Positions 1,992 through 22,298 of a DNA stretch of 64,000 nucleotides are shown here, piece by piece. Position 1 is the first letter of the stretch. The number at the start of each line of letters is the position of its first letter. The notes under the pieces are model-generated. The model had not been told where the DNA came from. It worked only from the letters and a program-made list of their open reading frames with translations, and searched no databases. The translations under genes were made by a program, and so were the position numbers. The stretch comes from Gallionella sp. (GTDB lineage Bacteria > Pseudomonadota > Gammaproteobacteria > Burkholderiales > Gallionellaceae). Where the stretch lies: contig JAQTTV010000005.1 of the NCBI GenBank assembly GCA_028710565.1, positions 62,001 through 126,000 on the forward strand. Reading direction: 5' to 3'.

Positions 1992-2186
1992 ATGGAAGAC
2001 AGATGGCTATCCGTAGATGAAATCGGAGCGTATCTCGGTGTAAAGCGAGATACGGTCTACAAATGGATCAGTGAAAAAGGCATGCCTGCCCACAAAGTCG
2101 GTCGTCTTTGGAAGTTTAAAAAAGACGAGGTTGACGAGTGGGTGCGCAAAGGTGGGGCGGGCGAGAGCAGTGTTGAGCATGACTGA
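1992..2186 (+). CDS. excisionase-type HTH (HTH_17/MerR-like) protein of the BREX locus
   Basis: A 64-residue protein made almost entirely of one winged HTH of the excisionase family: WLSVDEIGAYLGVKRDTVYK (about residues 4-23), then MPAHKVGRLWKFKKDEVDEW. Such proteins bind DNA as small regulators or recombination directionality factors. The ATG at 1992 is preferred over 1986 because a GGAG at 1980-1983 is then 8 bases upstream. The gene overlaps brxA by 8 bases, so it is the first gene of the BREX operon and probably its regulator. This differs from the larger WYL-domain regulator BrxR known in other BREX loci. Confidence 0.75.
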   Translation: MEDRWLSVDEIGAYLGVKRDTVYKWISEKGMPAHKVGRLWKFKKDEVDEWVRKGGAGESSVEHD

Positions 2187-2973
2187 AACGAATGCCATCA
2201 AACTGACCCGTTTCGGCTACCGCTTCGGGCGGGGCGGCGTCCATTCTTCGCGAACCATGATGCTCGCGGAGTTGCGGGCTTTGTTGAGTTACGTCGACAA
2301 GGCCAACGCACCGAAAGCTGAATACCTTGAAGCGATACAAACCGTCAACTGCCTTGGCAAACGCTCAGGTAAAACGCGCGTCCTGACGTATCGTCATCTC
2401 GTCGAACTTTACACACTCGACCCTAGTTTCGTTTTGTTCCGGGCACTGCGTTTTTTTTGGCAGCGCGATACCAGTGGGCAGCCACTGTTAGCAGCCTTGC
2501 TCGCATATTCGCGTGATCCAATATTTCGATCATCTGCTTCTATCGTTCTCGCGTATCAGGAAGGTGCTACGGTCGCGCGCGAAGTGCTTGAAGATTTTAT
2601 CGATAATCAGGAGCATGGCCGTTTCAGCCCTGCCACTCTCAAATCCACCGCGCAAAATATCAACGCAACATGGACGCAGGCGGGTCATCTGACTGGCCGT
2701 GCGCGCAAGGTTCGTACGCAAGCCTTGGCAACTCCCGGTGCGGTAGCATTCGCACTGTTGTTGGGTTACCTGGCGGGGCAGCGCGGGGAGAATCTTTTCA
2801 GCAGTGAATATATGCGGCTGCTCGATTGCAGTTTTAACCGTGCCATTGAACTGGCCGAGGATGCCTCTCGTCGTGGTTGGATCACGTTGAAGCGCGTAGG
2901 GCAAGTGATCGAGGTGGTATTTCCGAACCTGATGACGGCACAGGAAATGGAGTGGCTACGTGAGCAGAATTAA
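2179..2973 (+). CDS. brxA: BREX protein BrxA (DUF1819)
   Basis: The 264-residue product matches the DUF1819/BrxA family, a small DNA-binding core protein of type I BREX. It opens with a TETNAIKLTRFGYRFGRGG segment. A central RVLTYRHLVELYTLDPSF segment and the C-terminal LDCSFNRAIELAEDASRRGW helix pair are typical of the family. The start at 2179 is the first ATG giving the family length; it overlaps the HTH gene, and the long in-frame N-terminal reading from 2071 is a shadow of that gene. The 3' end overlaps brxB by 14 bases. No catalytic residues are expected. Confidence 0.9.
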   Translation: MTETNAIKLTRFGYRFGRGGVHSSRTMMLAELRALLSYVDKANAPKAEYLEAIQTVNCLGKRSGKTRVLTYRHLVELYTLDPSFVLFRALRFFWQRDTSGQPLLAALLAYSRDPIFRSSASIVLAYQEGATVAREVLEDFIDNQEHGRFSPATLKSTAQNINATWTQAGHLTGRARKVRTQALATPGAVAFALLLGYLAGQRGENLFSSEYMRLLDCSFNRAIELAEDASRRGWITLKRVGQVIEVVFPNLMTAQEMEWLREQN

Positions 2974-3511
2974 ACGATTGATTCAGTCATACAGCAAATA
3001 CGTTGCTGTGCCGTGGCGTAACGATGCGGCAGCGGCTCAGCGTGTTATTTTCTGCGTCTATAACGAGACTGAAGAGCTGCGCCTGCGCGCAAAAATTGAT
3101 GAGTTTGAAATTGCCACACGGGCGGCCGGACATGAATGGGCCTTGTTCGATCTGACGGATACGTTCCCTAACTGGATAGCTTCCCAGCGCTATGCAAAAA
3201 GCTACTTTCAAAAGCCAAGCCTGCTGCCAACGTTACTGCCAAAGTATCTCACCTATATAGAGACAGAGTTCACCACGTTCATGCAAGATCGAGGCGCAGA
3301 TGACAACTTTGTCGTGGCGCTCAAGGGCGTAGGCTCGCTGTTTGGTTTTTTGAAGGTTAAGGAAGTCGTGGATAAACTCGCTCCCATGGCAAAGGGGCGG
3401 CTGCTGGTGTTCTTCCCCGGCAGCTTTGAAGACAATAACTACCGCCTGTTGGATGGGTATGACGGCTGGAATTATCTGGCTGTTCCCATCACCGCAGACA
3501 AAGAATTCTGA
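2960..3511 (+). CDS. brxB: BREX protein BrxB (DUF1788)
   Basis: A 183-residue DUF1788 protein, the second core gene of type I BREX, with a probable scaffold role in the BREX complex. It contains the LLVFFPGSFEDNNYRLLDGYDGWNYLAVPI C-terminal block characteristic of the family (last third of the protein). Translation starts at a GTG at 2960 inside the end of brxA, which indicates tight coupling. brxC follows after 14 bases. The length is normal for the family. Confidence 0.9.
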   Translation: MSRIKRLIQSYSKYVAVPWRNDAAAAQRVIFCVYNETEELRLRAKIDEFEIATRAAGHEWALFDLTDTFPNWIASQRYAKSYFQKPSLLPTLLPKYLTYIETEFTTFMQDRGADDNFVVALKGVGSLFGFLKVKEVVDKLAPMAKGRLLVFFPGSFEDNNYRLLDGYDGWNYLAVPITADKEF

Positions 3512-3525
3512 TTAAGGGTCAATAC

Positions 3526-6500
3526 ATGCTCAATCGCGATATCTACCAAAAAGACCCATCCACCCGTAAGTTGGTCAATGAGGGGGTTGCCAGCGTCAAT
3601 GATGAACAGACCGATCAGGCACTTTCTGTGCTTCGATACGAACTGGAAACCTTTGTTTGTGACGGGCAGTATGAAATCGGCATGGCGCATATTCTTGAGA
3701 CCTACCTCAAAAATGTCGATCAGGCTCAGCAACCGGCAGTCTGGGTGAGCGGCTTCTTTGGATCAGGTAAGTCGCATCTAGTGAAGATGCTTCGTGCGCT
3801 GTGGATCGACACCGAGTTTGAAGATGGCGCAACGGCACGTGGCATTGCTACGCTGCCACAATCAATCCGCGACCATTTGCGTGAATTGAGCACTCAGGCC
3901 AAGCGACACGGCGGTGTGCATGCCGCTTCCGGTACGTTGGGTTCTGGTGCCAGCGATAAATCAGTGCGTTTGGCTTTGCTAGGCATTCTTTTTAAATCGG
4001 TCGGTTTGCCGGAGCAGTACCCGGTTGCACGCTTCGTTATGTGGCTAAAGCATGAAGGAATTTACGATACGATACGAGACCATGTTCAGCAAAATGGCTT
4101 CGATTGGAATGAAGAACTCGACAACTTCTACGTGGCTGAGGGGCTGCATCAGGCTTTGGTTAAGACTAAGCCCAATCTATTTCCATCGACAGCTTCATGC
4201 ATAGATACGTTGAACAACCTGTATCCTTATGCACAAGATGTTTCCAGTGATGAGATGCTCAAATCTATTCGTCAGGCGCTCACTCGGGACGGTAAATTTC
4301 CACTCACTGTTGTGGTTTTGGACGAGGTTCAGCAATTTATCGGTCCAAGTGCCGAACGCTCTATTGAGGTACAGGAAGCTGTTGAGGCGATTTGCAAGAA
4401 TATCGGTGGCAAGATGCTGTTTGTTGGTACAGGACAAACGGCGGTTACCGGTGTGGCCTTACTTGCACGTCTTCAGGGACGTTTTACGGTTCGCATTGAG
4501 TTATCCGATGCGGATGTTGATGCCGTTATTCGCCAGGTGATTCTGGCCAAGAAGCCTGAAGCCAAAGTCCCTGTAGAAAAAGTGATGCAAACCAATCTGG
4601 GCGAGATTTCACGCCATTTGGCCGGTACAACCATCGGCCATCGTTCTGATGACATCCAGTTTTTTCCGCAGGACTATCCCATACTCCCGGTGCGTCGTCG
4701 TTTTTGGGAGAATACCTTGCGCGTACTCGATCAAACTGGCACAGACAGCCAGTTGCGCAACCAGCTCTCCATGATACACAAGGTTATTCAGACTAATATG
4801 AATGCACCGGTCGGTAGTGTGGTGCCTGCGGATTATCTTTACTTTGATGCCGCAGACAAGCTGCTTCAGTCGCGTATCCTGCCCCGCAAGGTGCATGAAA
4901 AAACCATGAGCTGGAGCAAGGGGACGGACGATCAGCGCTTGATGGGGCGTGCCTGCGGTCTGGTGTTTCTGATTAATAAACTCGCCAGCAGCAATAACGA
5001 GATCGGCATTCACGCTACGGTTGATACGTTGGCCGACCTGTTGGTAGAAGATTTGACGCAAGGCTCCAGCGCGCTGCGCAGCAAGCTGCCTGGCCTGCTC
5101 GATAAGTGCGAACTGCTGATGAGGGTAGGGGACGAGTACCGTATCCAGACCGAAGAGAGCTCTGCCTGGAACGATGAATTTTTGAACCAGCGGAGTAGCC
5201 TGGCCAACGAGGCTCACCGTGTCGATGCAGAACGTGACGATCGAATCCGCCGACGGTTCGGCGAAATGGTGCGTAAGCTGTCGCTCACTCAAGGCACATC
5301 CAAGGTTACGCGCGACATCTATCCGGTGTTTGATGCTCAACTCCCAGCCGATGCCAATGAGAAAGTATCGGTATGGGTACGCGACGGCTGGAGTGTCGAC
5401 GAAAATTCTGTACGGGCAGACGCACGCCAGGCCGGCAATCAGTCACCCACGGTTTTTATATTCATCCCTAAGCGTTCTGCTGATGAGTTGCGTCATTATT
5501 TGATCGACTTTAAAGCGGCAAGCGCCACGCTGGACAAGCGTGGAATACCCAACACCGCCGAAGGTACCGAAGCGCGTTCGGCGATGGAAACGACCAGGCA
5601 AGCCGCCGAAGGCAAGATCCGCGAACTCTTGCAGGAAACCTTCTCAGGTGCGCGGGTGTTTCAGGGTGGCGGCAACGAAATCCTGGGCGGCGATCTGCAA
5701 GAGATGACACTGGAAGCGGCGACCAACGCGCTGCAACGGCTTTACCCGCAATTTCATATTGCCGATCATGCCGGTTGGACTAAAGTCTATGAGAAGGCGC
5801 AAAAAGGTGCGCCGGACGCGCTCAAGAGTGTGGCAGATGAAGGTGAACCTGCCAGGAACCCCGTTTGCAAATCCATTCTTTCCTTCATTGCAGGCGGTAA
5901 AAAAGGCATTGATATTCGTAAGCTTTTTGAGGGAGCCAATTACGGCTGGTCAGGTGACGCCGTGGATGGCGGTTTGCAAGTGCTGATGGTGGCGGGTTTG
6001 ATTCGTGCTCAGGATGAACGGGGGCAAACCATTGATCCAAAGGACTTGGAACGCAAGACCATTGGTAAGACGATGTTCAAGGTCGAATCGACCACCGTGA
6101 CAGTGGCACAGCGCATCCAGATTCGCAAACTTCTGCAAAAAATCCTTTCAAATAAAGTTGATCAAGGAGCGGAGCTTTCATTTGTACCTCAGTTCCTGGT
6201 CAGCGCAAAAGGGCTTGCTGATCGAGCCGGGGGAGAGGCACCAAGGCCTGCAAATTGCGACACGACTTCGCTGGACGAAATTCGCCTGACTTCAGGCAAT
6301 GAACAACTTTTAGCGTTGTATAACCGGCGCGACGAGCTTAGCGATGCCATCGACACCTGGACTGATCGTGTCGCACGTATTGAGAAGCGTTTGCCATCCT
6401 GGAATATCCTTACGCGCCTGATGAGACAGGCGAATGGTCTTTCCGATGCCGATGTGCTGGTGGCGCAGGTTAAGCACATCGAACAGCAACGTCAATTGTT

Positions 6501-6969
6501 GGAAGAGCCGGATCCGATTGCGCCGTTAATCAACAGCTTCACGCAATTGTTGCGTGAAGAGTTGAATCACTTGCAGGCTGACTACCAGTCCCGCCATCAA
6601 AAAGGTATGGCGCGCCTGGATGCAGACACCAACTGGCAGCAACTTGAACCCGAGCAACGCAACAGCCTGCTTGCCACACAGAAGCTGACATTATCCGATG
6701 TGCCGAAAGTGCAGGTCGCCAACACAGAAGAAGTGCTGCTCACCGTAGAGCGACTGTCACTTTCTTCTTTTGTTGACCGCGTGGCGGCCATAGACTCCCG
6801 TTTTGATGCTGTGCTGGTGGCTTCTGCTGAGCTGATGGAGCCGCAAGCTCAATTTGTATCGGTACCGAAACGCACATTGAAAACAGTTGAAGATATTGAA
6901 AACTGGACTAGCGGGGTTCGTCAGCAGCTTGAAGAAGCCTTGAAACATGGTCCAGTCGTGATTCGTTAA
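3526..6969 (+). CDS. brxC: BREX ATPase BrxC (DUF499/DUF6079-type P-loop protein)
   Basis: A 1147-residue P-loop ATPase, the large motor or sensor protein of type I BREX. The N-terminus MLNRDIYQKDPSTRKLVNEG is conserved in BrxC. Walker A is GFFGSGKS at about residues 76-83 and a Walker B-like VVVLDEVQQF lies near residue 265. The long C-terminal half is helical, with no second nucleotide site obvious. An AAGGG site precedes the ATG. The gene is intact and of the usual length of about 1150-1200 residues. It is followed by an unusual 240-base gap before pglX, discussed separately. Confidence 0.93.
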   Translation: MLNRDIYQKDPSTRKLVNEGVASVNDEQTDQALSVLRYELETFVCDGQYEIGMAHILETYLKNVDQAQQPAVWVSGFFGSGKSHLVKMLRALWIDTEFEDGATARGIATLPQSIRDHLRELSTQAKRHGGVHAASGTLGSGASDKSVRLALLGILFKSVGLPEQYPVARFVMWLKHEGIYDTIRDHVQQNGFDWNEELDNFYVAEGLHQALVKTKPNLFPSTASCIDTLNNLYPYAQDVSSDEMLKSIRQALTRDGKFPLTVVVLDEVQQFIGPSAERSIEVQEAVEAICKNIGGKMLFVGTGQTAVTGVALLARLQGRFTVRIELSDADVDAVIRQVILAKKPEAKVPVEKVMQTNLGEISRHLAGTTIGHRSDDIQFFPQDYPILPVRRRFWENTLRVLDQTGTDSQLRNQLSMIHKVIQTNMNAPVGSVVPADYLYFDAADKLLQSRILPRKVHEKTMSWSKGTDDQRLMGRACGLVFLINKLASSNNEIGIHATVDTLADLLVEDLTQGSSALRSKLPGLLDKCELLMRVGDEYRIQTEESSAWNDEFLNQRSSLANEAHRVDAERDDRIRRRFGEMVRKLSLTQGTSKVTRDIYPVFDAQLPADANEKVSVWVRDGWSVDENSVRADARQAGNQSPTVFIFIPKRSADELRHYLIDFKAASATLDKRGIPNTAEGTEARSAMETTRQAAEGKIRELLQETFSGARVFQGGGNEILGGDLQEMTLEAATNALQRLYPQFHIADHAGWTKVYEKAQKGAPDALKSVADEGEPARNPVCKSILSFIAGGKKGIDIRKLFEGANYGWSGDAVDGGLQVLMVAGLIRAQDERGQTIDPKDLERKTIGKTMFKVESTTVTVAQRIQIRKLLQKILSNKVDQGAELSFVPQFLVSAKGLADRAGGEAPRPANCDTTSLDEIRLTSGNEQLLALYNRRDELSDAIDTWTDRVARIEKRLPSWNILTRLMRQANGLSDADVLVAQVKHIEQQRQLLEEPDPIAPLINSFTQLLREELNHLQADYQSRHQKGMARLDADTNWQQLEPEQRNSLLATQKLTLSDVPKVQVANTEEVLLTVERLSLSSFVDRVAAIDSRFDAVLVASAELMEPQAQFVSVPKRTLKTVEDIENWTSGVRQQLEEALKHGPVVIR

Positions 6970-7065
6970 GTTGAGCCAAAATAATGAGAACACCTAACCA
7001 GATTGAAGCACTACTAAGAGGGTGCATGTTCACTACGAATTCAGCCACGACGTAAGGGATACACA

Positions 7066-7155
7066 ATGGGACCACTCGACAAAGACCTGCGTAACTCGCC
7101 TGGATGGCTAGGGTGCAGCGATACCTTGCCGTTTTTTAACATTAAAATTTGTTGA
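7066..7155 (+). pseudogene. vestigial or leader copy of the pglX start
   Basis: A 29-codon frame with a good AAGGG ribosome site at 7054-7058 begins M-GPLDKDLRNS and ends at a TGA at 7153-7155. The downstream pglX protein begins M-QPLDKALRSQ, so 8 of the first 11 residues are the same, and 20 of the first 30 bases match at the DNA level. After that the similarity is lost. The simplest reading is a relic of a second pglX 5' end left by recombination or gene replacement. A translated leader peptide is an alternative. Confidence 0.45.
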
Positions 7156-7187
7156 ATGTGACTTTTAATGTGAAATCATCATTAAAA
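7140..7187. repeat. three copies of an 8-bp CATTAAAA element upstream of pglX
   Basis: CATTAAAA occurs at 7140-7147 and 7180-7187, and its complement TTTTAATG at 7163-7170. The spacing is regular (about 23 and 17 bases) and AT-rich in an otherwise balanced locus. It could be a regulatory site or an AT-rich promoter for independent pglX expression. The sequence is short, so chance cannot be excluded. Confidence 0.3.
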
Positions 7188-7211
7188 ATACATTGAAAGC
7201 CGGAAAAAGAT

Positions 7212-10200
7212 ATGCAGCCACTCGATAAAGCTCTTCGCAGTCAGCTTGAAAAGACCGTCAAGGCCGCGCGCACTATCGCCGAGCTGGCGGCGAATGCGGC
7301 GCTTGAGCAACTGGGAGTCGGCCACGATAAGCCGGAAGCTTTTCTGACTGACGCTGAAAAGGTGCTGCGCAATCGTTTGCGTACCCACGGCAAGCAGTTA
7401 GGCGACGAACGCGATTCGAAAAGCTCAAATCCGACCTATGGCAAGCAAGCCGTTCAGCATCTGGTGCAGGAAGTGGCTTATGAGCACTGGCACCGCATGC
7501 TGTTCGCGCGCTTCCTGGCCGACAACGACTTGCTGATGTACGACGGAGTGGCCGTTACCCTCGAAGAGTGCGATGAACTGGCCGCAGATGAAGGTGCGAA
7601 GAGCGGCTGGGAACTGGCGGGCAAGCTTGCCGCGCGCATGTTGCCGCAGGTGTTCAAGCCCGGCTCACCCGTGTTTTCACTGACCTTTGCCCCGGAACAT
7701 CAAAGCGAACTGGAACGCCTGCTCAAGGACTTGGCCGATGACGTGTTCAAGGCCAGCGATAGCCTGGGCTGGGTGTATCAATTCTGGCAGGCCGATAACA
7801 AAGAACGCATCAACAAGTCGGAAGTAAAGATCGGTGCCGACGAGTTGCCCGCCGTTACCCAGCTCTTCACCGAGCCGTACATGGTGGCGTTTTTGCTGCA
7901 CAACTCATTGGGCGCATGGTGGGCCACGCGGCACCCGGACACTCCATGCCCAGTGAACCTCGACTACCTGCGCACGCTCGAAGATGGCTGTCCAGCAGCG
8001 GGCAAGTTTGAAGGCTGGCCCGACACCTTGGCTGAATTCAAGCTGCTCGACCCGTGTTGTGGTTCCGGCCATTTTCTGGTCGCCGCCTTTTTGATGCTGG
8101 TGCCGATGCGCATGGTCGCCGAAAGTTTGAGTTCAAAACAAGCCATTGATCGCGTGCTGGCCGATAATTTGCACGGTCTGGAGCTGGATCCGCGCTGCGT
8201 GGAAATCGCGGTGTTTGCCGTTGCGCTGGAAGCCTGGCGCTACACGGATGCATCCGGCAATGCATTGGGCGTGCGTGAGATTCCTGTCCCGAACATCGCC
8301 TGTTGCGGCCTCAAGGTGGCGGCCAAGGCGGAAGACTGGGAAGCGCTAGTGCCGGATGATGCACCCAACGTCGCGCATCTGCGTCTGGGGCTGAGCCGGT
8401 TGCACGAAACCTTTGCACAAGCGCCTTTATTGGGTAGTTTGCTCGACCCATCCAAAGCCGATACAGGCGATTTGTTCGCAGCGGATTATCGACTGCTCAC
8501 TGACTTGCTGGATAAGGCGCTAGCGACGGAGTACCAATCGAACCTGTTCGATGATAAAGATGATCGTTGGGAGTTGGCACTGAGCGCGCAAGGGCTGCTG
8601 GAAGCGGCACGCCTGCTCGATGCGCGCTATCACCTGGTTATTACCAACGTGCCATATCTTACGCGCGGCAAGCAGGATGAACGACTGAAAGACTATTGCG
8701 AAACTCATTACCCTACAGCCAAGAACGATCTGGCTAATGTGTTTCTGGAGCGTTGTCTGGAATTATCGAAAGTCGGCGGCGCGGGCGTGGTGCAAATTGT
8801 CATGCCGCAGAACTGGTTGTTTCTTGGGAGCTACAAAAAACAGCGCGAGAATTTGCTGAAATACGTTAACTGGAACCTTCTGGCGCGTCTCGGACCAGGT
8901 GCGTTCGAGACGATAAGCGGAGAAGTGGTTATAGTTGTTTTGCTTACGCAAACCAATATCCAATCTCTAGGGAACGGCCTGCTACGAGGTGTGAATGTGA
9001 GCGCATGTGGTAGTCCAACTGAAAAGGCCGCTGCACTTAGATTTCAAGACGTGCAGTCAGTAAGTCAAAAGGCGCAGTTATCCAATCCAGATTCACGATT
9101 GTCATTTGATGAAGTCTCTTCATTGTCAAAGCTCTCTGATTATGCGGATAGTGTAGAAGGACTCTCATCTGGCGATCTAGAGCGGTTCATCTCGTTGTTC
9201 TGGGAAGTTCCGCAGTATAGCGATGGTGTGTGGAAATTTTTTCAGCGTTCGCCTGACAGTAAGGATTGTTTTACTGGTTGTCGTTCATTGTTGCGCTGGG
9301 AAAATGGGAATGGTGCCCTTGCCGTGTCTTCTCAAGCTCGTGTGCAAGGGCATAGCGCATGGGGCAAAAAGGGAGTTCTCGTTAACTTGATGAGCAACCT
9401 TAATTGCGCTTTATATCTAGGTGTGCAGCATGACAAAATCACGGCTGCAATCGTGCCAAAGGATGAAAAGTATCTTGCTCCTATTTGGGCGTATTGTTCG
9501 AGTGAGGACTACAACATTCAAGTTAGGAAGTTAAATCCAGCTTTACAGCCAGGTACTTCCACGCTTGTTAAAGTTCCGTTCGATCTCGATCACTGGACTA
9601 AGGTGGCAGCAGAAAAATATCCAAACGGCTTGCCAAAACCTTATTCCGACGACCCGACCCAATGGATTTTTCATGGACATCCGCAACCTTCAACTGATCC
9701 GTTGCAAGTTGGGGTCGCTCGCCTGCTCGGTTACACCTGGCCCGCCGAGACAGATGAAGAAATGGAGTTGTCCGACGAGGCTCGCGAGTGGATTGCCCGT
9801 TGCCAAACCTTGTCTGCCCATACTGACGATGACGGTATCGTTTGCATTCCGCCAGTGGGGCAAGAGTCTGCTGCCAGCGACCGGCTGTTGAATTTGCTTG
9901 CCGATGCCTATGGTGATGCTTGGAGCAACGACACCCTCGCGCAATTGCTCAACAACGCCGACCATGCAGGCAAGTCGCTGGAAACCTGGCTGCGCGAGAA
10001 GTTCTTTGCCCAGCATTGCAAGCGCTTCGGCAATCGTCCCTTCATCTGGCAGGTGTGGGATGGCCTGAGCGATGGTTTTTCAGCACTGGTGAATTACCAC
10101 AAGCTTGACTACAAGACGCTGGAGTCGTTGATCTATACCTATCTGGGTGACTGGATCAGCCGCCAGAAACGTGATGCCGAAAATAGAGTGGATGGCGCGC

Positions 10201-10568
10201 AGGAAAAACTGGCCGCAGCAGAAGTGCTCAAGAAGCGTCTGGAGTTGATACTGGAAGGCGAAGCACCTTACGATATTTTCGTGCGCTGGAAGCCACTAGC
10301 AGCACAGTCCATCGGCTGGCATCCCGACCTGAACGACGGCGTGCGCATGAACATTCGCCCCTTCCTCTCGGTGCCGGACGTGGGCAAACGCGGCGCGGGT
10401 GTGTTGCGCGACAAGCCGAACATCAAATGGGAAAAGGATAGAGGTGCCGATGTCGCATCCGCGCCCTGGTACAACCTCGGCCCCGAGTACGGTGGCAACA
10501 AAGGGGATCGCATCAACGATCATCATCTGTCGCTCGAACAGAAGCGCATTGCACGAGAAAGCCCGTAA
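7212..10568 (+). CDS. pglX: BREX adenine-specific DNA methyltransferase PglX
   Basis: An 1118-residue type I BREX methyltransferase that marks host DNA (N6-adenine at a non-palindromic site) and is needed to tell self from phage. The SAM-binding motif I reads LLDPCCGSGHF near residue 277, and the catalytic motif IV near residue 476 reads TNVPYL, a variant of the common NPPY. The region after it (about 500-790) is the likely target-recognition part and is richer in AT than its flanks, as is usual for exchangeable specificity regions. The C-terminus, with QSIGWHPDLNDGVRMNIRPF, is typical of BREX PglX. The stop overlaps the next ATG by one base. Confidence 0.93.
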   Translation: MQPLDKALRSQLEKTVKAARTIAELAANAALEQLGVGHDKPEAFLTDAEKVLRNRLRTHGKQLGDERDSKSSNPTYGKQAVQHLVQEVAYEHWHRMLFARFLADNDLLMYDGVAVTLEECDELAADEGAKSGWELAGKLAARMLPQVFKPGSPVFSLTFAPEHQSELERLLKDLADDVFKASDSLGWVYQFWQADNKERINKSEVKIGADELPAVTQLFTEPYMVAFLLHNSLGAWWATRHPDTPCPVNLDYLRTLEDGCPAAGKFEGWPDTLAEFKLLDPCCGSGHFLVAAFLMLVPMRMVAESLSSKQAIDRVLADNLHGLELDPRCVEIAVFAVALEAWRYTDASGNALGVREIPVPNIACCGLKVAAKAEDWEALVPDDAPNVAHLRLGLSRLHETFAQAPLLGSLLDPSKADTGDLFAADYRLLTDLLDKALATEYQSNLFDDKDDRWELALSAQGLLEAARLLDARYHLVITNVPYLTRGKQDERLKDYCETHYPTAKNDLANVFLERCLELSKVGGAGVVQIVMPQNWLFLGSYKKQRENLLKYVNWNLLARLGPGAFETISGEVVIVVLLTQTNIQSLGNGLLRGVNVSACGSPTEKAAALRFQDVQSVSQKAQLSNPDSRLSFDEVSSLSKLSDYADSVEGLSSGDLERFISLFWEVPQYSDGVWKFFQRSPDSKDCFTGCRSLLRWENGNGALAVSSQARVQGHSAWGKKGVLVNLMSNLNCALYLGVQHDKITAAIVPKDEKYLAPIWAYCSSEDYNIQVRKLNPALQPGTSTLVKVPFDLDHWTKVAAEKYPNGLPKPYSDDPTQWIFHGHPQPSTDPLQVGVARLLGYTWPAETDEEMELSDEAREWIARCQTLSAHTDDDGIVCIPPVGQESAASDRLLNLLADAYGDAWSNDTLAQLLNNADHAGKSLETWLREKFFAQHCKRFGNRPFIWQVWDGLSDGFSALVNYHKLDYKTLESLIYTYLGDWISRQKRDAENRVDGAQEKLAAAEVLKKRLELILEGEAPYDIFVRWKPLAAQSIGWHPDLNDGVRMNIRPFLSVPDVGKRGAGVLRDKPNIKWEKDRGADVASAPWYNLGPEYGGNKGDRINDHHLSLEQKRIARESP

Positions 10569-14302: not shown

Positions 14303-15583
14303 ATGCTCAAGCATCTAAAGCTAAAAAATATTGGACCTGCTGCCAGCATGGAGCTTGAATTTGGCGAGCGTCTTAATCTGATTACGGGTGACAATGGTTT
14401 GGGCAAGAGCTTTTTGCTGGACATTGCCTGGTGGACGCTGACCAGAAAATGGCCTTCAGAGATCAACCCTAAGCTGACTGCCGGCAAGAAGGCACTACCG
14501 AGTGGTGATGGGGCCGCGAGTATCGACTTTTCATTCACTGCAAAGAAAAAAGAAGAGGCTTATACCAGCACCTTTTTGCGACGCGAGCAGGCGTGGACTG
14601 GACGACCAGGGCGACCAGCCAATCCAGGCTTGGTCTTCTATGCGATGGCAGACGGTAGTTTTGCTGTATGGGACCCCGCGCGTAATTATTGGCGTACTCA
14701 GGATGGCGTTGACATCCAAGAACGTATCCCCGCGTATGTATTCGGCGCTGCTGAGGTTTGGGATGGTTTGAACGGCAAGGATGGAAAACCGATTTGCAAT
14801 GGTTTGGTTTTGGATTGGGCAGGTTGGCAGAAAGAAAAAGGAGAGGCTTTTAACAGTCTATGTGCTGTGCTAGAAGTGCTGTCGCCTTCAGCCAAGGAAC
14901 CATTGGTTCCCGGGAACTTTACACGTATTAGTCTTGATGATGCCCGGGATATTCCGACCATTCGCATGCCGTATGGACAGGATGTGGCCATACTTCATGC
15001 CTCAGCAGGGATGCGTCGAATTTTTGCTTTGGCTTACCTTCTGGTTTGGTCTTGGGAGGAACATCAAAAAGCGGCGAAACTGTTGGGTGAAGAGCCGACC
15101 AATCAGGTTATTCTCCTGATCGATGAGGTCGAGTCACACCTGCACCCGCAGTGGCAAAGAAAGATTATTCCCGCATTGCTTGCTGCCGTTAAGGCGCTCA
15201 TCAAAAATGCTGATGTTCAAATCATCACCGCAACTCATTCGCCGCTGATTATGGCATCGGTTGAACCGTCATTTGATGATAAAAAGGATGCGTGGTTTGA
15301 TTTGGACTTTGAGCATACGAAGGTCGTACTCAGACAGCGCGATTTTGAAAAACATGGTGATGCCGGGACGTGGTTGATCAGTGAGGCATTTGACCTTGAG
15401 AGCGGCCGGCCAGTTGAGTACGAAGCACTGATCAATGAAGCGGCAGCGCTGATGGAGCAAGAGCAACCAGATGCAACAGTGATCAAGAAAATGAATGAAG
15501 CACTGGTTGCAGCTTTGAGCCCGAAAGATGATTTTCTGTTTAGCTGGCGTTATATCTGCAAGCAGAAGGGATGGCTTGAATGA
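14303..15583 (+). CDS. AAA/ABC-type ATPase, PtuA-like (Septu-like pair)
   Basis: A 426-residue RecF/SMC-like ATPase. Walker A is TGDNGLGKSFLL near residue 29, and Walker B with the D-loop is LLIDEVESHLHPQWQ near residue 271, followed by an ITATHSPLIM H-loop. It has no Toprim domain, unlike the GajA-like protein upstream. The next gene encodes an HNH nuclease and overlaps it by ATGA, so the two likely form a two-protein nuclease of the Septu (PtuA-PtuB) or related ATPase-HNH type. A good AAAGGAG site precedes the ATG. The 113-base gap before it suggests it is a separately acquired unit. Confidence 0.72.
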   Translation: MLKHLKLKNIGPAASMELEFGERLNLITGDNGLGKSFLLDIAWWTLTRKWPSEINPKLTAGKKALPSGDGAASIDFSFTAKKKEEAYTSTFLRREQAWTGRPGRPANPGLVFYAMADGSFAVWDPARNYWRTQDGVDIQERIPAYVFGAAEVWDGLNGKDGKPICNGLVLDWAGWQKEKGEAFNSLCAVLEVLSPSAKEPLVPGNFTRISLDDARDIPTIRMPYGQDVAILHASAGMRRIFALAYLLVWSWEEHQKAAKLLGEEPTNQVILLIDEVESHLHPQWQRKIIPALLAAVKALIKNADVQIITATHSPLIMASVEPSFDDKKDAWFDLDFEHTKVVLRQRDFEKHGDAGTWLISEAFDLESGRPVEYEALINEAAALMEQEQPDATVIKKMNEALVAALSPKDDFLFSWRYICKQKGWLE

Positions 15584-16176
15584 TCCCAGTCAGCTTGCAG
15601 CCAGAACCAGTAGATTTTGATGTGAAAGTGCGTCAGCTTGGCCGTACATGGTTGGCTAATAATGGCATTGCACTGAATGCGGCACCACCCAAAGGATCAG
15701 CTTTGCCCAACTATTGGACTCACTCGAATAAGCCGCTTTGGGATGCTTACTCCGGTATATGCGCCTATTTGGCGATTTATTTTGAATGGGCTACCGGGGC
15801 GAGTTCGACGGATCATTTCGTTGCCAAATCGAAACATGCCGGTGATGCCTACGAGTGGAATAACTACCGTTTGTCTTGCTTGGGTGCAAACCGCAATAAA
15901 AATAAGTTCGATGATGTGCTTGACCCGATAGGATTGGTTCAGGATAAGTTTTTCCTCAATCTGGCAACCGGTGAAATTCAAGCCAATCCTGCACTCGGTG
16001 AAGCAGACAAGGAAGTAGCTGGAAAAACTATTATTCGCCTCAAGCTGGATAGTGCTGAACATAATCAAATGCGCGCCAAGCATTTTGTCCGCTATTTGCG
16101 CAAGAAGGACGAGGAATCTTTGAAGGAACTCTCGCCCTTCGTATGGTATGAGGCTCAGCGACAAGGGTTGTTATGA
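15580..16176 (+). CDS. HNH endonuclease, PtuB-like partner
   Basis: A 198-residue protein with an HNH-type nuclease core: STDHFVAKSKHAGDAYEWNN (about residues 86-105), then YRLSCLGANRNKNKFDD. The DH pair, the asparagines and the lysine fit the HNH consensus of the retron/Septu-associated family. The gene overlaps the ATPase gene by ATGA, so both are made together, and the ATPase probably gates the nuclease. The C-terminal half (FLNLATGEIQANPALGEAD) follows the pattern of the same family. Its specificity for phage is not visible in sequence. Confidence 0.7.
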   Translation: MIPVSLQPEPVDFDVKVRQLGRTWLANNGIALNAAPPKGSALPNYWTHSNKPLWDAYSGICAYLAIYFEWATGASSTDHFVAKSKHAGDAYEWNNYRLSCLGANRNKNKFDDVLDPIGLVQDKFFLNLATGEIQANPALGEADKEVAGKTIIRLKLDSAEHNQMRAKHFVRYLRKKDEESLKELSPFVWYEAQRQGLL

Positions 16177-16215: not shown

Positions 16216-17907
16216 GTGACAAAGAAGATTAGCGGTGCAGAATATCCCCTCGCGAAAATATTCAGTTCGGATTTCGATTACGTCATCCCATCCTATCAGC
16301 GGCCCTATGCCTGGACAGTGGATGAGGCATCTGAGTTGTTTGATGATCTTTACGATTTCTTCCTCAAGGAGCGGGAGGACACCTATTTCCTCGGCAGCAT
16401 TGTGCTGATTAAAGAAGAGAACAAGCCACATGCTGAGGTAATCGACGGCCAGCAGCGATTGACCACATTGACGATTCTTCTATCTGCCTTGACCGCGCAA
16501 TTTTCAGGCTCGTTACGTGCCGATTTTGAAAATTATATCTGCGAACCTGGGCGTGCATCGCAAGGCTTAGAACCCAAGCCCAGGTTGGCGCTACGCGAAC
16601 GTGACCGCGAGTTCTTTGCCGACCATATTCAGGCATTACAACTTGATAAATTGCTGAGCTACGATCCCGTGCAATTGAATAACGAATCACAGCGGAATAT
16701 TCAAGGCAACGCCCGACTTTTGCTGGAGAGGCTGAAGAGTGCGTTCGGTTCGGACAATAAGAAACTGTGTGAGTTTGGCGCTTTTCTCGTGCAGCGTTGT
16801 TTCCTGGTGGCGGTCTCAACGCCAAGTCAGAAGTCAGCTTTCAGGGTGTTTTCGGTTCTCAATAGCCGAGGTCTGGACTTGCTCCCGACCGACATCATCA
16901 AGTCCGAGGTGATAGGGCGTATCCCGCCAGGCAAGCAGGACGATTTTACCGAGAAGTGGGAGGAACTGGAGGTTCAAACCGGACGCAACGGTTTTGCCGA
17001 ACTGTTTGGTCATATTCGGATGATCTACGCCAATGCAAAAGCCAAGCGAGCCTTGCTCGAAGAATTCAAGGAACATGTCCTGGCGGCAGTTCCTTCGCCA
17101 GAGGATTTGGTAACCAACGTCATAGAGCCTTACGCCGAGGCTTACATGGTCGCCAAGAATAATCAGTACGTGTCCACGGCAAACGCGGCCGACATCAATG
17201 CGCTTCTTAAATGGCTGAACCGGATCGATAACTCAGACTGGTTGCCATCGGCTATCTTGTTCCTAGCGCAGAAAAAAAACGAGCCGGATTACGTATTGTC
17301 ATTTTTCAAGAAGCTGGAGCGGCTGGCAGCCGCCATGCATATCTGTGGCAAGAACGTGAATGAGCGTATTGAGCGCTATGCACCAGTTGTCGCTGCATTG
17401 CAGAAACCGCATTCATTACAGGAGCCTGTGGTTGCGGTGGAGCTTACACCTAGAGAGAAAGATGAAATGTCGGCTGCGCTGGATGGCAGGATCTATGGCT
17501 TGTCTGCGCGACGCCGCAACTATCTTATCTTGCGGATGGATTCCTTCCTGGTAGATGGTGCGGCAAGCTATGACCCAAGTATATTGACGATAGAGCATGT
17601 GCTGCCACAGACGGTTGATCCACAGAGTGATTGGGCACGGATATGGCCTGATCCGGAGGTGCGTGATGCTTGGGTACATCGCATTGCCAACCTAGTGCCG
17701 TTAACACAGAAGAGCAATTCTCAGGCGCGCAACTACGACTTTGAAAGGAAGAAAACCGCCTACTTTGGCGGAAAACAGGGGGTTTCTTCCTATGCGCTGA
17801 CGACTCAAGTGTTGAAGACACCAGTGTGGTCGCCGGATATTGTGAAGGGTCGCCAGGAAGAGTTGCTGGGTGTGTTGGTCAAAGAATGGGATTTGAAAAC
17901 CTCATGA
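16216..17907 (+). CDS. DUF262-DUF1524 nuclease, GmrSD/BrxU-like
   Basis: A 563-residue fusion. The N-terminal DUF262 (GmrS-like NTPase/nucleotide-binding) part shows IPSYQRPYAW near residue 25 and VIDGQQRLTTL near residue 75. The C-terminal DUF1524 (GmrD-like HNH) part shows TIEHVLPQT near residue 460 and IANLVPLTQKSN near residue 500. GmrSD enzymes cut DNA with modified cytosines (type IV restriction). A similar fused enzyme, BrxU, is encoded in the BREX locus of Escherichia fergusonii plasmid pEFER. Translation begins at GTG 16216 after AAGGAA. The 3' end overlaps pglZ by ATGA, so this gene is locked into the BREX operon. Confidence 0.82.
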   Translation: MTKKISGAEYPLAKIFSSDFDYVIPSYQRPYAWTVDEASELFDDLYDFFLKEREDTYFLGSIVLIKEENKPHAEVIDGQQRLTTLTILLSALTAQFSGSLRADFENYICEPGRASQGLEPKPRLALRERDREFFADHIQALQLDKLLSYDPVQLNNESQRNIQGNARLLLERLKSAFGSDNKKLCEFGAFLVQRCFLVAVSTPSQKSAFRVFSVLNSRGLDLLPTDIIKSEVIGRIPPGKQDDFTEKWEELEVQTGRNGFAELFGHIRMIYANAKAKRALLEEFKEHVLAAVPSPEDLVTNVIEPYAEAYMVAKNNQYVSTANAADINALLKWLNRIDNSDWLPSAILFLAQKKNEPDYVLSFFKKLERLAAAMHICGKNVNERIERYAPVVAALQKPHSLQEPVVAVELTPREKDEMSAALDGRIYGLSARRRNYLILRMDSFLVDGAASYDPSILTIEHVLPQTVDPQSDWARIWPDPEVRDAWVHRIANLVPLTQKSNSQARNYDFERKKTAYFGGKQGVSSYALTTQVLKTPVWSPDIVKGRQEELLGVLVKEWDLKTS

Positions 17908-20246
17908 AAGTTGTCGATCAACTGGTCAAAATCTTGCGCGAGTCGGCAGTATTCAACTCCGAAGTTCAGGTCGCTCCCTCTTGTATTCTGTGGCCAGACA
18001 AGGATCGCCAGTGGGAAGCGATCATTCCGCGCTTGCGAGACGAGTTGCCTGAACTATTTGTGTTGGGTGAGTATGCGCCTGAGAAGCGTGTGGGCCCTGC
18101 CATCTGGCTGCGCTGCGTTATTGCAAACCAAGTAGCTGACGTGACCTTGCCCGCTAATCGCGTACCGATATTTTATCTGCCGGGTGTGAGCCGCCAGGAT
18201 TTGCGTGCGATTGAAACTTGCCCTGATTTACTCAAGCCACTGGCTGAGTTGCAGTATCGGGGCGTGATTTGGTCGCAGGTCAACGCCAAGGATTGGACCA
18301 TCATGGCGTTCTTGAAGGCTGATCAGGGTGGCATTGGGCTGGATGTGGCGCAGGATAATGATGCCAAGAGCGCGATGCAACTGGCTCTATACCGCCTGCT
18401 CGATGAAGAGCTTGATCTGCTTCGTGGCAAGCGGCTGGATAAGGACTATTTCAATACCTTGCTGACAGGCGGAGATCCGGTTCGTGACTTGTTGCAGTGG
18501 CTTGATCTGGGTGACTCATTTCAATCGACGCGTGGTGAGAACGAGTGGAAAGCCTTTGTGGAGGTCTGCAAATCGCAATTGGCGTTCAATCCACAAAATG
18601 ATGGGGTGCTGGCCGGTGCCCATAAACTGGCTGCCCGTGAAGGCCCTTGGTATGCAGTGTGGGAGCGCTATAGCGAAGCGCCTGGGCGTTATCCCAATAT
18701 TCCAAACCGAATTCGCCAGTGTAAGCCACCGATTTTCGATCTGTTTGTCACAGTCGAGACGACCGGTGGTTGGCCACAATGGAATGATGAGCAGGAGCAA
18801 TCGTTACAGCGTGAGCTGTTGACGCTTGGTCATGTTCCCGCGCATGAGGCTAGAAAGCGCGTGGTGGAGTTTGAGAAGAATCATGCACTGCGCCGTAATC
18901 TGGTATGGGTAGAACTTGGTGAGTCGCCCCTAGCGATGGCGATAAAGCATTTGAGTATGGTGGCTGATGTGACCAAGTCAGGTTTAAACGCAGGCACGCT
19001 ACAGGATTTGCAAGCAGGTTATGCGAGTCAAGGATGGCGTGCCGATGATGCGGTGCTGGCGGCGTTGGCTTGCGTGGACAAAGTGGCAGATGTAGAAGCT
19101 GTCGCGATAGCAATACGTGCGATTTATTTGCCCTGGCTGGAAGACTCTGCCCGGTATCTGCAAAAGCTGGTTGATGGCTCGACTTATCCCGGCGGCACAA
19201 TAGCGGGGGCAAAACCTTTTTCTGCCCAAAAGGGCGAGTGCGTACTGTTCGTCGATGGATTGCGTTTTGATACGGCGCGCAGGTTGGCAGTAACACTCGA
19301 ATCCCGTGGTTGTGAAGTTGTTGAAACGATGAATTGGGCTGCGTTGCCTAGCGTCACTGCGACGGGGAAGGCAGCAGTGTCACCGGTGCGGGATAAGATC
19401 AGCGGTGCTGACGACTGTGATGATTTTGAACCCTGTGTGGCGGCTACCGGGCAATCACTCAAGGGTGGTTATCACTTGGATAAGTTGCTGAAAAAAAGTG
19501 GATGGGAAGTGCTTGGCCGTACCGATAACGGTAATGGACAGGGCAACGCCTGGTGTGAATTTGGCGATATCGACAGCGAAGGGCATGCGCGCGGCTGGAA
19601 GTTGGCTAAGCACATTAATCCGCTGCTCGCAGAGGTTGCGGAACGCATTGCTGCGCTGTTGACCGCAGGCTGGAGCCGTGTCAGGGTGGTAACTGATCAC
19701 GGCTGGCTATTGATGCCGGGAAAGTTGCCCAAGATCGAGATGTCCAATGATCTGACCGACAATAAGTGGGGGCGCTGTGCTTCGATCAAGCCCGGAGCCT
19801 CTACCGGTGAGCGTTTGTACCCGTGGTTCTGGAATCCTCATCAGCAGTTTGCTTTAGCTGATGGAGTAAGCTGCTACCGGAGGTCGGAAGAATATACTCA
19901 TGGAGGATTAAGCCTTCAAGAGTGTCTGACACTTGAGCTAGTTGTTAGCCAAGGCGGGGCTGCCACGGGTAAGCCTGTGTTGGAAGTGACGGATATTGCG
20001 TGGAAGGGGTTACGCTGTACAGTTGCTGTTGATGGTCAGTATGAGCGTCTTTCCCTCGATATACGGACTCAGGCTGGTAATCCGGCCTCCAGCGTAGTCG
20101 TGAGCGTGAAGCCGTTTAAGGAAAATGGCACCGCATCAGTGGTTGTTGAGAATGAAGAAATTGAAGGCCATAAGGCCTTTCTTGTCTTACTCGGTACGGC
20201 AGGTGAGCTGGTGTATGAGGCAAATACCGTGATCGGTGGAGAATAG
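17904..20246 (+). CDS. pglZ: BREX alkaline-phosphatase-like protein PglZ
   Basis: A 780-residue PglZ-domain protein, an essential core component of BREX of the alkaline phosphatase superfamily. The metal-site segments are CVLFVDGLRFDTARRL near residue 447 and VRVVTDHGWLLMPGKLPK near residue 595. The start at 17904 overlaps the preceding stop (ATGA) and gives a protein beginning MKVVDQLVKIL; the in-frame extension upstream to 17826 is a shadow of the preceding gene. The length is normal for type I PglZ. Confidence 0.93.
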   Translation: MKVVDQLVKILRESAVFNSEVQVAPSCILWPDKDRQWEAIIPRLRDELPELFVLGEYAPEKRVGPAIWLRCVIANQVADVTLPANRVPIFYLPGVSRQDLRAIETCPDLLKPLAELQYRGVIWSQVNAKDWTIMAFLKADQGGIGLDVAQDNDAKSAMQLALYRLLDEELDLLRGKRLDKDYFNTLLTGGDPVRDLLQWLDLGDSFQSTRGENEWKAFVEVCKSQLAFNPQNDGVLAGAHKLAAREGPWYAVWERYSEAPGRYPNIPNRIRQCKPPIFDLFVTVETTGGWPQWNDEQEQSLQRELLTLGHVPAHEARKRVVEFEKNHALRRNLVWVELGESPLAMAIKHLSMVADVTKSGLNAGTLQDLQAGYASQGWRADDAVLAALACVDKVADVEAVAIAIRAIYLPWLEDSARYLQKLVDGSTYPGGTIAGAKPFSAQKGECVLFVDGLRFDTARRLAVTLESRGCEVVETMNWAALPSVTATGKAAVSPVRDKISGADDCDDFEPCVAATGQSLKGGYHLDKLLKKSGWEVLGRTDNGNGQGNAWCEFGDIDSEGHARGWKLAKHINPLLAEVAERIAALLTAGWSRVRVVTDHGWLLMPGKLPKIEMSNDLTDNKWGRCASIKPGASTGERLYPWFWNPHQQFALADGVSCYRRSEEYTHGGLSLQECLTLELVVSQGGAATGKPVLEVTDIAWKGLRCTVAVDGQYERLSLDIRTQAGNPASSVVVSVKPFKENGTASVVVENEEIEGHKAFLVLLGTAGELVYEANTVIGGE

Positions 20247-20249
20247 CAA

Positions 20250-22298
20250 ATGATTGAATTGGATGAGATCGATAAAAAGGCCGCTGATGTACTGGAAGGA
20301 TATTTGGTCCGGAAAGATCTGGTTCGCACGTTCAGTCGGCAATTTCCGGTGCCTACCTATGTCGTTGAGTTCATGCTCGGGCGGTATTGCGCCAGCATTA
20401 TTCAGGAAGAAATCGAAGAGGGGCTGGAGATTGTTCAGCGTCAACTGAAATCCCGAACTGTCAAAGCGGGGGAAGAGGAGTTGTTCAAGGCCAGAGCGCT
20501 CGAAACCGGTGAGGTGAAGATTATTGACCTCATCACCGCTCGTGTTGATAACAAAGGCGAGTATGTTGCCAGCTTGCCTAGTTTGCGCCTGACCGATGTA
20601 CGGATCAGCGGTGAATTAGTTAATCAGCACGAGCGCATGTTAACGGGTGGATTCTATGCCGAGATTAGCATCACGTTCGATGTCGCCATTGCTCAGGAGG
20701 CGAGGGGACGACCATTTGGTGTGACGTCCCTACGGGAGATACAGCTTTCAAAACGTGATGTTCTGGATATTCTTGCCAAGGCTCGTCACAGCTTTACCAC
20801 GGAAGAGTGGAAAGACTTTCTGCTTCGTTCCATCGGTATTGAAGCCGTCGATTTGACGGTGCGCCAGAAAAATGCACTTCTACTGCGCATGGTGCCGTTT
20901 GTCGAGCGCAATTACAACTTGGTGGAACTCGGGCCGCGCGGTACGGGTAAGAGCCACCTGTTTCAGCAAGTTTCTCCCTATGCGCACTTGATTTCCGGTG
21001 GTAAAGCCACGGTGGCAAAGATGTTCGTTGAGAACACCGCCAAGGGGCGCAGAGGCTTGGTTTGCCAGTATGACGTAGTCTGTTTTGATGAGGTGTCCGG
21101 CATTTCCTTCGACCAGAAGGATGGCGTGAATATCATGAAGGGCTACATGGAGTCGGGCGAGTTTAGTCGCGGCAAGGAGAGTATCCGGGCTGATGGCAGT
21201 ATCGTGCTGGTGGGTAACTTCGAGGTTGACGTGGAACATCAACAGCGCATCGGGCATTTGTTCGGCCCCTTGCCGCCGGAAATGCGCGATGATACGGCGT
21301 TTATGGATCGCATCCACGCTTTCTTGCCTGGTTGGGATGTTCCGAAGATCAACAAGGATATAGTGACCAACCACTTCGGCCTAGTGAGCGACTTTTTGTC
21401 GGAATGCTGGAGCCAGCTCCGCAACCAAAGCCGCGTTAGTCAGTTGCAGAACAGAGTTTACTTCGGTGGCGCACTCTCTGGTCGCGACACAAATGCAGTT
21501 AATAAGACGGTCAGTGGGCTTTTGAAATTGCTTTATCCTAGCGGTGAGGATGCGGTACCAGAGGAAGATTTGGAGTGGGCTGTGCGCATCGCGATGGAGT
21601 CTCGTCGACGAGTGAAAGAGCAGCAAAAACGTGTGGGTGCAGCCGAGTTTCGTAATACTCATTTCAGTTATGTCATGGGTGCTGATGGCATCGAAAAATT
21701 TGTGTCAACGCCTGAGTTGCAAAGTGACAACAGCATTGGCGGCGATCCGCTCGAACCGGGACAGGTTTGGAGTATTAGTCCTGGGGGCAGTGAAGAAAAC
21801 TCAGGGTTGTATCGTATTGAGGTTAACGAAGGGCCGGGCACAGGCGTGAAAGTGCTTAACAAACCCATTCCTCCAGCCTTCCGTGAAAGCGTGGGCTACG
21901 CCGAGCAAAATCTTTATGCCAGATCAGTACAACTGGTTGGCGATAAAGATCCCAGGCAGCACGAATTTACGGTACAGCTGCGCGCGTTTGATGCATCGAA
22001 GTCTGGCTCAAAGTTAGGGGTTGCTTCGTTGGTCGCACTATGCACGTCACTTTTAAAACGGAGTGTGCGGGGTGGATTGATTATCGTAGGTGAGATCAAC
22101 CTTGGTGGCTCGATTGAGCCGGTTCACAACGCGGTTACCATAGCGGAAATTGCCGTTGAAAAGGGCGCGACTGCGCTGTTGATGCCTGTTGCCTGTCGGC
22201 GACAACTGGTCGATCTTTCTGACGACATGGCCACCAAGATCGATATTCAGTTCTATTCTGATGCCAAAGATGCGCTGCTGAAGGCTATGGCAGAATGA
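20250..22298 (+). CDS. brxL: BREX Lon-like protein BrxL
   Basis: A 682-residue AAA+ protein with a C-terminal Lon-like domain, the last core gene of type I BREX. Walker A is ELGPRGTGKSH near residue 227, and the Walker B stretch VVCFDEVSGISFDQKDG lies near residue 275. The C-terminal about 100 residues (GLIIVGEINLGGSIEPVHNA and on) are Lon-like. The central protein is a DNA-binding hexamer in studied homologues. A GGTGGAG site precedes the ATG 3 bases after pglZ. With it, the core set brxA-B-C-pglX-pglZ-brxL is complete. Confidence 0.93.
   Translation: MIELDEIDKKAADVLEGYLVRKDLVRTFSRQFPVPTYVVEFMLGRYCASIIQEEIEEGLEIVQRQLKSRTVKAGEEELFKARALETGEVKIIDLITARVDNKGEYVASLPSLRLTDVRISGELVNQHERMLTGGFYAEISITFDVAIAQEARGRPFGVTSLREIQLSKRDVLDILAKARHSFTTEEWKDFLLRSIGIEAVDLTVRQKNALLLRMVPFVERNYNLVELGPRGTGKSHLFQQVSPYAHLISGGKATVAKMFVENTAKGRRGLVCQYDVVCFDEVSGISFDQKDGVNIMKGYMESGEFSRGKESIRADGSIVLVGNFEVDVEHQQRIGHLFGPLPPEMRDDTAFMDRIHAFLPGWDVPKINKDIVTNHFGLVSDFLSECWSQLRNQSRVSQLQNRVYFGGALSGRDTNAVNKTVSGLLKLLYPSGEDAVPEEDLEWAVRIAMESRRRVKEQQKRVGAAEFRNTHFSYVMGADGIEKFVSTPELQSDNSIGGDPLEPGQVWSISPGGSEENSGLYRIEVNEGPGTGVKVLNKPIPPAFRESVGYAEQNLYARSVQLVGDKDPRQHEFTVQLRAFDASKSGSKLGVASLVALCTSLLKRSVRGGLIIVGEINLGGSIEPVHNAVTIAEIAVEKGATALLMPVACRRQLVDLSDDMATKIDIQFYSDAKDALLKAMAE

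Follow-up and report, generated by a model that had tools for sequence, protein, structure and literature searches.

The window analysed here, a stretch of 64,000 nucleotides from Gallionella sp. (contig JAQTTV010000005.1, positions 62,001 to 126,000), contains at 1992-22298 on the + strand a complete type I BREX (bacteriophage exclusion) operon with a PglZ of type B. We consider it probable that the interval between pglX and pglZ in this operon is a cargo slot, in which three separate defence modules have been collected: a Gabija-like gene pair, a Septu-like gene pair, and a single GmrSD-type nuclease gene. Comparative analysis of the locus shows the anatomy of the operon, the intact motifs of the predicted inserted proteins, and the presence of different modules in the same slot of relatives, together with module histories that appear unlike that of the core.

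Profile searches with PADLOC-DB, NCBIfam and Pfam models reveal the gene order HTH_17, brxA, brxB, brxC, pglX, gajA, gajB, ptuA-like, ptuB-like, GmrSD-type, pglZ and brxL, with the following features:

1992..2186, + strand, HTH_17 (excisionase-like) small DNA-binding gene that overlaps brxA, a possible regulator (Pfam HTH_17 62.5 bits, cut-off 27)
2179..2973, + strand, brxA (PADLOC BrxA 360 bits, the match starting at residue 41 in the longer frame; ATG at 2179)
2960..3511, + strand, brxB (PADLOC BrxB 267 bits; Pfam BrxB)
3526..6969, + strand, brxC (PADLOC BrxC 1651 bits; NCBIfam BREX_BrxC 935 bits, cut-off 400)
7066..7091, + strand, scrap resembling an older 5' end of pglX, between brxC and pglX (ATG, then 19 nt identical to the pglX starts of loci L001, L009, L010 and L074)
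7212..10568, + strand, pglX, adenine methyltransferase, specificity (PADLOC PglX 1692 bits; motifs DPCCGSG and NVPY)
10568..12289, + strand, gajA-like, OLD-type ATPase with TOPRIM nuclease, Gabija (PADLOC GajA 860 bits)
12292..14190, + strand, gajB-like, UvrD/PcrA-type helicase (PADLOC GajB 878 bits; motifs AGPGSGKT, DEFQD and GDDDQ)
14303..15583, + strand, ptuA-like, OLD-type ABC ATPase, Septu-like (PADLOC PtuA 601 bits; GDNGLGKS, DEVESHLHP)
15580..16176, + strand, ptuB-like, HNH-motif protein (PADLOC PtuB 207 bits)
16216..17907, + strand, GmrSD-type nuclease, DUF262-DUF1524 (Pfam GmrSD_N 134 bits and GmrSD_C 81 bits, both above cut-off)
17904..20246, + strand, pglZ, type B (PADLOC PglZ 1088 bits; NCBIfam BREX_PglZ_1_B 963 bits, cut-off 400)
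20250..22298, + strand, brxL (PADLOC BrxL 975 bits; Pfam BrxL domains)

A complete type I core had been proposed from the letters of the window alone (the sequence-only reading), and the PADLOC-DB and NCBIfam profiles bear this out for all six genes, which stand in the expected order; their predicted activity is N6-adenine methylation of a 6-bp motif combined with phage restriction. The NCBIfam BREX-1 PglX model gave 350 bits against the window PglX, under its cut-off of 500, and Pfam returned no PglZ match at this locus. Two gene starts were revised: that of brxA to 2179, where the list of open reading frames gave a longer frame and where the gene overlaps the HTH_17 gene ending at 2186, and that of pglZ to 17904, as most relatives match the longer frame only from about residue 27 onward, with which the gmrSD overlap agrees. 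The brxC-pglX spacer, short in the other loci inspected for this feature, carries in the window the apparent pglX start remnant (7066-7091; ATG and about nine codons) and, 3' of it, an AT-rich stretch (7130-7195) with CATTAAAA/TTTTAATG inverted motifs.

The sequence-only reading had also placed GajA/GajB-, Septu- and GmrSD-like genes between pglX and pglZ, and the hidden Markov model searches it proposed as a check confirm the placement: by PADLOC-DB and Pfam scores, the models matched by the inserted genes are those of Gabija, Septu and GmrSD, not those of ordinary BREX genes. All five are open and keep their catalytic motifs. GajA combines the Pfam domains AAA_15 and OLD-like_TOPRIM as an OLD-type ATPase with a C-terminal TOPRIM; it has the motif GENNSGKT, E403-G-E405, D456 and D458 are conserved in 6 sequences, and a Gabija GajA structure was matched in the Protein Data Bank (PDB; E 1.4e-12). 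GajB carries superfamily 1 (SF1) helicase motifs and is closer to PcrA/UvrD than to the solved GajB chains in the same database. A GajA with an adjacent UvrD-type GajB constitutes the Gabija gene pair, for which nucleotide-regulated DNA nicking is predicted. PtuA, an ABC ATPase with Walker A and B motifs, is followed by the HNH-motif protein PtuB in the Septu gene layout, and PtuB residues D78-H79, N95 and N104 are invariant in 14 sequences. No Pfam domain was found in PtuB, the structure model of which (mean predicted local distance difference test, pLDDT, 63.5; below 50 over residues 72-110) was too poor for structure search. The fifth protein, with 543 bits to PADLOC 'Orf5', is of GmrSD type, comprising DUF262 with DGQQR and DUF1524 with an HNH-type motif; DGQQR and E460-H461 are invariant in 9 sequences, and cutting of modified-cytosine DNA is the predicted activity. 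We regard it as very improbable that the Gabija and Septu labels are wrong and that these genes belong to the ordinary BREX-associated set. Although no NCBIfam Gabija or Septu name exceeded its cut-off, and the proximity of GajB to PcrA/UvrD would suit such an error, the PADLOC scores (860, 878, 601 and 207 bits) extend across whole proteins, GajA matches solved Gabija GajA, and relatives outside BREX retain GajA and GajB as a pair.

Overlaps at pglX/gajA, ATPase/HNH and gmrSD/pglZ, likewise reported in the sequence-only reading, are all three present in the sequence: pglX and gajA have one base in common (TAATG), and an ATGA overlap occurs at each of ptuA/ptuB and gmrSD/pglZ. The spacing from gajA to gajB is 2 bp, and the gene chain is interrupted upstream of pglX (242 bp), ptuA (112 bp) and gmrSD (39 bp). 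On the basis of these overlaps, a single transcript is plausible for the operon, across which scans for sigma-70-like promoters (11 found versus 14.8 expected) and terminator-like elements (23 versus 19.8) were at chance level. Downstream of BREX, the region 22685-27997 contains a DUF3701 integrase-like gene, an actin-like (ALP) gene, and another helicase of UvrD type, for which GajB models give matches as well; this region is possibly a mobile element.

The status of the pglX-pglZ interval as a slot emerges from comparison with other BREX loci. Among 80 loci retrieved by PglZ, both ends of the gap were present in 61, and the 19 with one slot end missing were left out; together with the window and 11 further loci, 73 slots were compared. 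A locus in which pglX was not found (L172) was left out, and L127 and L128 were excluded as copies of L005 and L001, respectively. Named modules represent our own grouping of sequence clusters, and a gene found without its usual partner was counted as a module, which is the sole reason that L031 reaches three. The slot is filled in 68 loci and empty in 5; it holds at least two named modules in 27 and at least three in six (L008, L010, L022, L023, L031 and the window). GmrSD-family genes occur in 27 slots, with 11 of them (window included) at least 61% identical to that of the window and the others distant, while PtuAB occurs in 12 slots and Gabija in 2. The triple nest is therefore less unusual than the sequence-only reading had supposed, insofar as six slots hold three or more modules, but the trio of Gabija, Septu-like pair and GmrSD was found in the window only (1/73). 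This result also answers the proposed search for the same composition in unrelated genomes, in which the closest approach was two of the three modules, in L100. The Septu-like/GmrSD order is reversed in L009, L010 and L045, and GmrSD and PtuAB co-occur at chance level; with the single occurrence of the trio, these observations leave a fixed functional unit unsupported. A preferred PtuAB-GmrSD pairing was rejected (4 slots observed, 4.4 expected). A second gap, between brxC and pglX, also carries an additional ~1.9 kb in several loci (e.g. L015, L029 and L063), at the position of brxU in pEFER.

Other cargo is diverse. Its representatives carry Schlafen, AIPR, DUF3644, DUF4276, DUF932, HSP70 and ABC/OLD-type ATPase domains; at 1e-15, six of ten have a PADLOC match to a model of an established or candidate defence gene, and four have none. 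Plasmid loci carry other restriction or toxin genes in the slot: HNH, DarT, an IS3 element and an HsdR N-terminal protein in Deinococcus NW-56, DarT with GTPases in Deinococcus QL22, and pairs of an AAA ATPase and a restriction endonuclease in Runella and Haliscomenobacter, the last annotated as a 5-methylcytosine restriction component. Varied contents, the lack of a preferred partner, and the four unmatched representatives would each be expected if the slot were merely a tolerated insertion site and its modules passengers without added value. However, the five genes inserted in the window are open with catalytic motifs, the six matching representatives point to defence, and a broken GajAB copy outside BREX in genome G335 exemplifies what decay looks like, such that neutral accumulation appears improbable.

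The modules and the BREX core differ in their apparent histories. The nearest match to the window is L100, from genome G339 of another family in the same order, which reads BrxA-B-C-PglX-GajA-GajB-GmrSD-PglZ-BrxL without PtuAB. Its core is divergent from that of the window (BrxC 44%, PglZ 44%, PglX 59%, BrxL 78%) and its cargo similar (GajA 74%, GajB 70%, GmrSD 71%), a partial recurrence of Gabija and GmrSD that fits cassette-like exchange. In Aeromonas caviae (L145, NZ_AP026896.1), PglZ and BrxC are each 39% identical to those of the window, yet PtuA and PtuB in the same slot reach 67% and 66%. These two loci, with divergent core and similar cargo, therefore suggest that modules move between BREX loci while the slot is kept. 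Conversely, L015 (PglZ 67%, GmrSD 64%) and L006 (PglZ 77%, PtuA 64%, PtuB 47%) combine a closer core with less similar cargo; because the similarity ranks of cargo and core are reversed between loci, differences in rate alone are insufficient, and transfer would explain the pattern. Gene trees were built without L128 (the copy of L001), GmrSD rows below 35% identity, and L161 (GmrSD-type gene in two pieces), and with L157 labelled BREX although it is a remnant. The trees agree with transfer: the GmrSD tree places the window with L100 and L157 (98/98), and the PtuA tree places it with L001, then L036 and L145 (100/100). Distance matrices correlate with that of PglZ at r 0.56 for PtuA and 0.37 for PtuB (13 loci each), compared to 0.97 for the core control BrxL (12 loci). 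The remnant at L157 (8696-15344) has pglX 3' pieces, a three-gene set including an HSP70-like protein, and a brxL piece last; its GmrSD-type gene is 69% like that of the window, and pglZ was not found in 20 kb.

Relatives of each module also exist away from BREX. PtuA relatives without a nearby BREX core gene occur in genomes of the order (L155, 59%; L156, 37%) and in four plasmid records (39-45%), three of which were inspected, and GmrSD-type relatives without a nearby core occur in L158-L160 and several plasmids. GajAB at ~40-45% in L140 and L141 lies, in each case, in 19.9 kb without a match to the BREX core, and L102 (also ~40-45%, 18 kb) had only a 32% match to a short PglX methyltransferase stretch; the relatives in L103, L139 and L142 lie on short contigs, where the BREX context is undecided. 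The existence of such relatives indicates that the modules are separable systems and not BREX parts. For GajA itself, relatives, including that of the window, were found in 3/274 genomes of the class and 16/399 of the order at 1e-40, and in 5/349 of the phylum at 1e-80; only that of G339 was both intact and at least 70% identical. No close GajA relatives were found in viral contigs, in E. coli, or on plasmids at 1e-60, and a search of phages gave 6 weak matches. In L101 (6190-9791), a broken GajA/GajB pair with pieces 41-72% like those of the window has no BREX core match in ~40 kb around it. On an Acinetobacter gerneri plasmid (L161, 2186-18726), a GmrSD-type gene 62% like that of the window lies in two frames between DNA methyltransferase and helicase genes, adjoining Tn7-like transposition genes.

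These distributions bear on whether the operon is instead an integrated unit, in which modules depend on the BREX core, for instance as backup effectors released on BREX inhibition, and work only together. The tight overlaps at pglX/gajA and gmrSD/pglZ are in keeping with such dependence, as is the fact that modules hold the same slot when changing backbone; 13 of 14 rows in the near PtuA clade are in BREX, though PglZ-based sampling favours this result, and the available text of Rakesh and Krishnan 2026 (PMC12839542) proposes backup effectors retained across BREX. We nevertheless consider integration unlikely, given PtuAB, GmrSD-type and GajAB relatives with no BREX core gene nearby, the empty slots, a trio without recurrence, and the ability of BrxU to act without BREX, as described in the accessible part of PMC8565348. 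An obligate four-system unit is not supported.

A possible route of module entry is suggested by scraps of pglX and pglZ within slots. PglX and PglZ segments, both terminal and internal, were taken from the loci and used as queries on a set of 67 loci, with four kinds of segment (the N-terminal and middle parts of PglX, the middle and C-terminal parts of PglZ) as controls. PglX C-terminal (3'-end) scraps were found inside the slots of L022, L034, L045 and L052, and PglZ N-terminal (5'-end) scraps inside those of L022, L023, L053 and, weakly (33%, E 4e-4), L052, whereas none of the control segments was found in a slot; scrap matches outside slots occurred in L011, L048 and L071. Each of the six scar loci is multi-module and has its scrap between cargo genes, and scars occur in 6/31 multi-module versus 0/30 other slots (Fisher p 0.024), a test in which unnamed genes were also counted as modules. 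The order in L045 is PglX, GmrSD, pglX scrap, PtuA, PtuB, PglZ, and in L053 a pglZ scrap overlaps the ptuB stop, as pglZ overlaps ptuB in L001. The L022 array (1867-10001) has three modules separated by two 510-bp spacers that are identical at 475/510 positions, each consisting of ~201 bp of pglZ 5' end, a ~200-bp linker, and ~82 bp of pglX 3' end (88%); the pglZ 5' end in the first copy is 90% identical to the locus's own pglZ. The linker holds a 12-bp hairpin motif. Scraps between stacked modules suggest slot-to-slot transfer, and the simplest reading of these scars is that an incoming slot was captured through homology at one end, with a rough join at the other. New modules would accordingly arrive when an incoming BREX locus recombines with its pglX or pglZ as the anchor, a route that would keep the slot constant and account for the scraps between stacked modules in some relatives. 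A more ambitious proposal, which we advance tentatively and at somewhat less than even odds, is that pglX-pglZ acts as a cassette-loading site, where modules flanked by pglX 3' and pglZ 5' ends as homology arms recombine into a resident BREX locus and stack into arrays, making BREX a self-loading platform and the window its three-module product. A scar inside the slot of the window was considered and rejected, as a repeat scan gave only short, diverged repeats and the segment search was empty there.

Several observations weigh against the interpretation of the interval as a slot loaded by transfer. The terminal-segment search found no scar in the window's own slot, and 10 loci screened with the ends of their own genes yielded none either (four of the 10, L129, L130, L132 and L145, also belong to the 67). 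All six scar loci are metagenome assemblies by title, with no scar in the 24 isolate-titled loci, and among multi-module loci scars occur in 6/20 metagenome or uncultured versus 0/11 isolate entries (Fisher p 0.066). E. coli could not serve as an isolate comparison here, since only 2 weak brxL matches turned up in it. GmrSD distances track PglZ closely (r 0.86; 11 loci), and the core pair PglZ-PglX agrees only moderately (r 0.78; 11 loci), so that the PtuA correlation alone is not strong. From these mixed correlations, the Septu-like pair appears to have moved most, while the GmrSD-type gene largely followed the backbone, with L100 a clear exception. A promoter missed by the scan could lie in the 112 bp upstream of ptuA. 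NCBIfam scores for PtuA (69.9 of 500 bits) and PtuB (45.7 of 150) fall far under cut-offs, although these models are specific for retron Ec78; we therefore use the label 'Septu-like' and not the retron form. Finally, PMC12839542, in its available text, sees such effectors as consistently retained and not sporadically acquired, a view that the transfer results presented here would qualify.

With the slot reading retained as the probable one, the modules would be expressed together with BREX from one transcript and act as largely independent layers. PglX would methylate self DNA, and phage DNA lacking methylation would be blocked by BREX; the GmrSD-type enzyme would cut modified-cytosine phage DNA, which escapes BREX; Gabija would nick DNA once phage activity alters the nucleotide pool, a response remarked on in the portion of PMC12205998 consulted; and the Septu-like pair may act late, perhaps via tRNA cleavage, as E. 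coli Septu does. Layered working is most likely by analogy with pEFER of Escherichia fergusonii, where, according to the accessible part of PMC8565348, BREX and BrxU protect against separate phage sets.

Defence-island growth has mostly been described as co-localisation, while here one intra-operon gap collects complete systems, and from the module histories and scars a specific route can be proposed and put to the test, in which separate BREX loci recombine with each other at this gap. Such a route would help to explain the frequent extra nucleases in BREX loci and would provide a rule for finding new defence genes, namely to inspect the pglX-pglZ interval, with the window as a natural four-layer construct for studying synergy. 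Auxiliary nucleases in BREX are already published: the available text of PMC12839542 describes GmrSD-family enzymes, OLD-ATPase with TOPRIM (PARIS/Gabija), and OLD-ATPase with HNH pairs inside or beside BREX, the same nuclease kinds as the cargo of the window. The kind is thus known, whereas for the trio, slot exchange and scars no description was found in the open-access literature on BREX nesting and exchange, supplements of PMC12839542 aside. The available text of that study does not describe a three-module slot, a recurrent pglX-pglZ position, backbone exchange or pglX/pglZ scraps, and its supplements may list such loci.

Comparison with individual systems sets the window in context. Like the window, the type I BREX of pEFER has a GmrSD-family type IV enzyme inside the operon, and there the two independent layers were demonstrated experimentally; as far as the accessible part of PMC8565348 extends, BrxU is the one extra enzyme named within the core, other extra genes lie upstream, and no Gabija or Septu-like pair is described. 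The statement of the sequence-only reading that BrxU-like enzymes in BREX are known holds in that GmrSD-family members are catalogued; brxU itself lies in the other gap, between brxC and pglX (PMC8565348 and PMC12839542, in their available text). Septu and the retron-Eco7 effector pair share with the window an ABC ATPase and an HNH protein, and the His/Asn spacing of PtuB is the same, H79/N95 in the window and H75/N91 in E. coli Septu, which cleaves tRNA-Tyr and requires both residues (PMC13096335, available text); unlike the retron-Eco7 pair, the window has no reverse transcriptase among its operon genes, and NCBIfam retron cut-offs are not reached. Gabija likewise comprises an OLD ATPase-TOPRIM protein and a UvrD-type helicase encoded by adjacent genes, although the pair in the window is nested in BREX and its helicase has 632 aa compared to 493-499 aa in solved GajB chains. 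PARIS, as covered in the available text of PMC12839542, also adds an OLD-type sensor and effector to BREX, whereas the window has TOPRIM fused in GajA with a helicase, plus a separate HNH pair.

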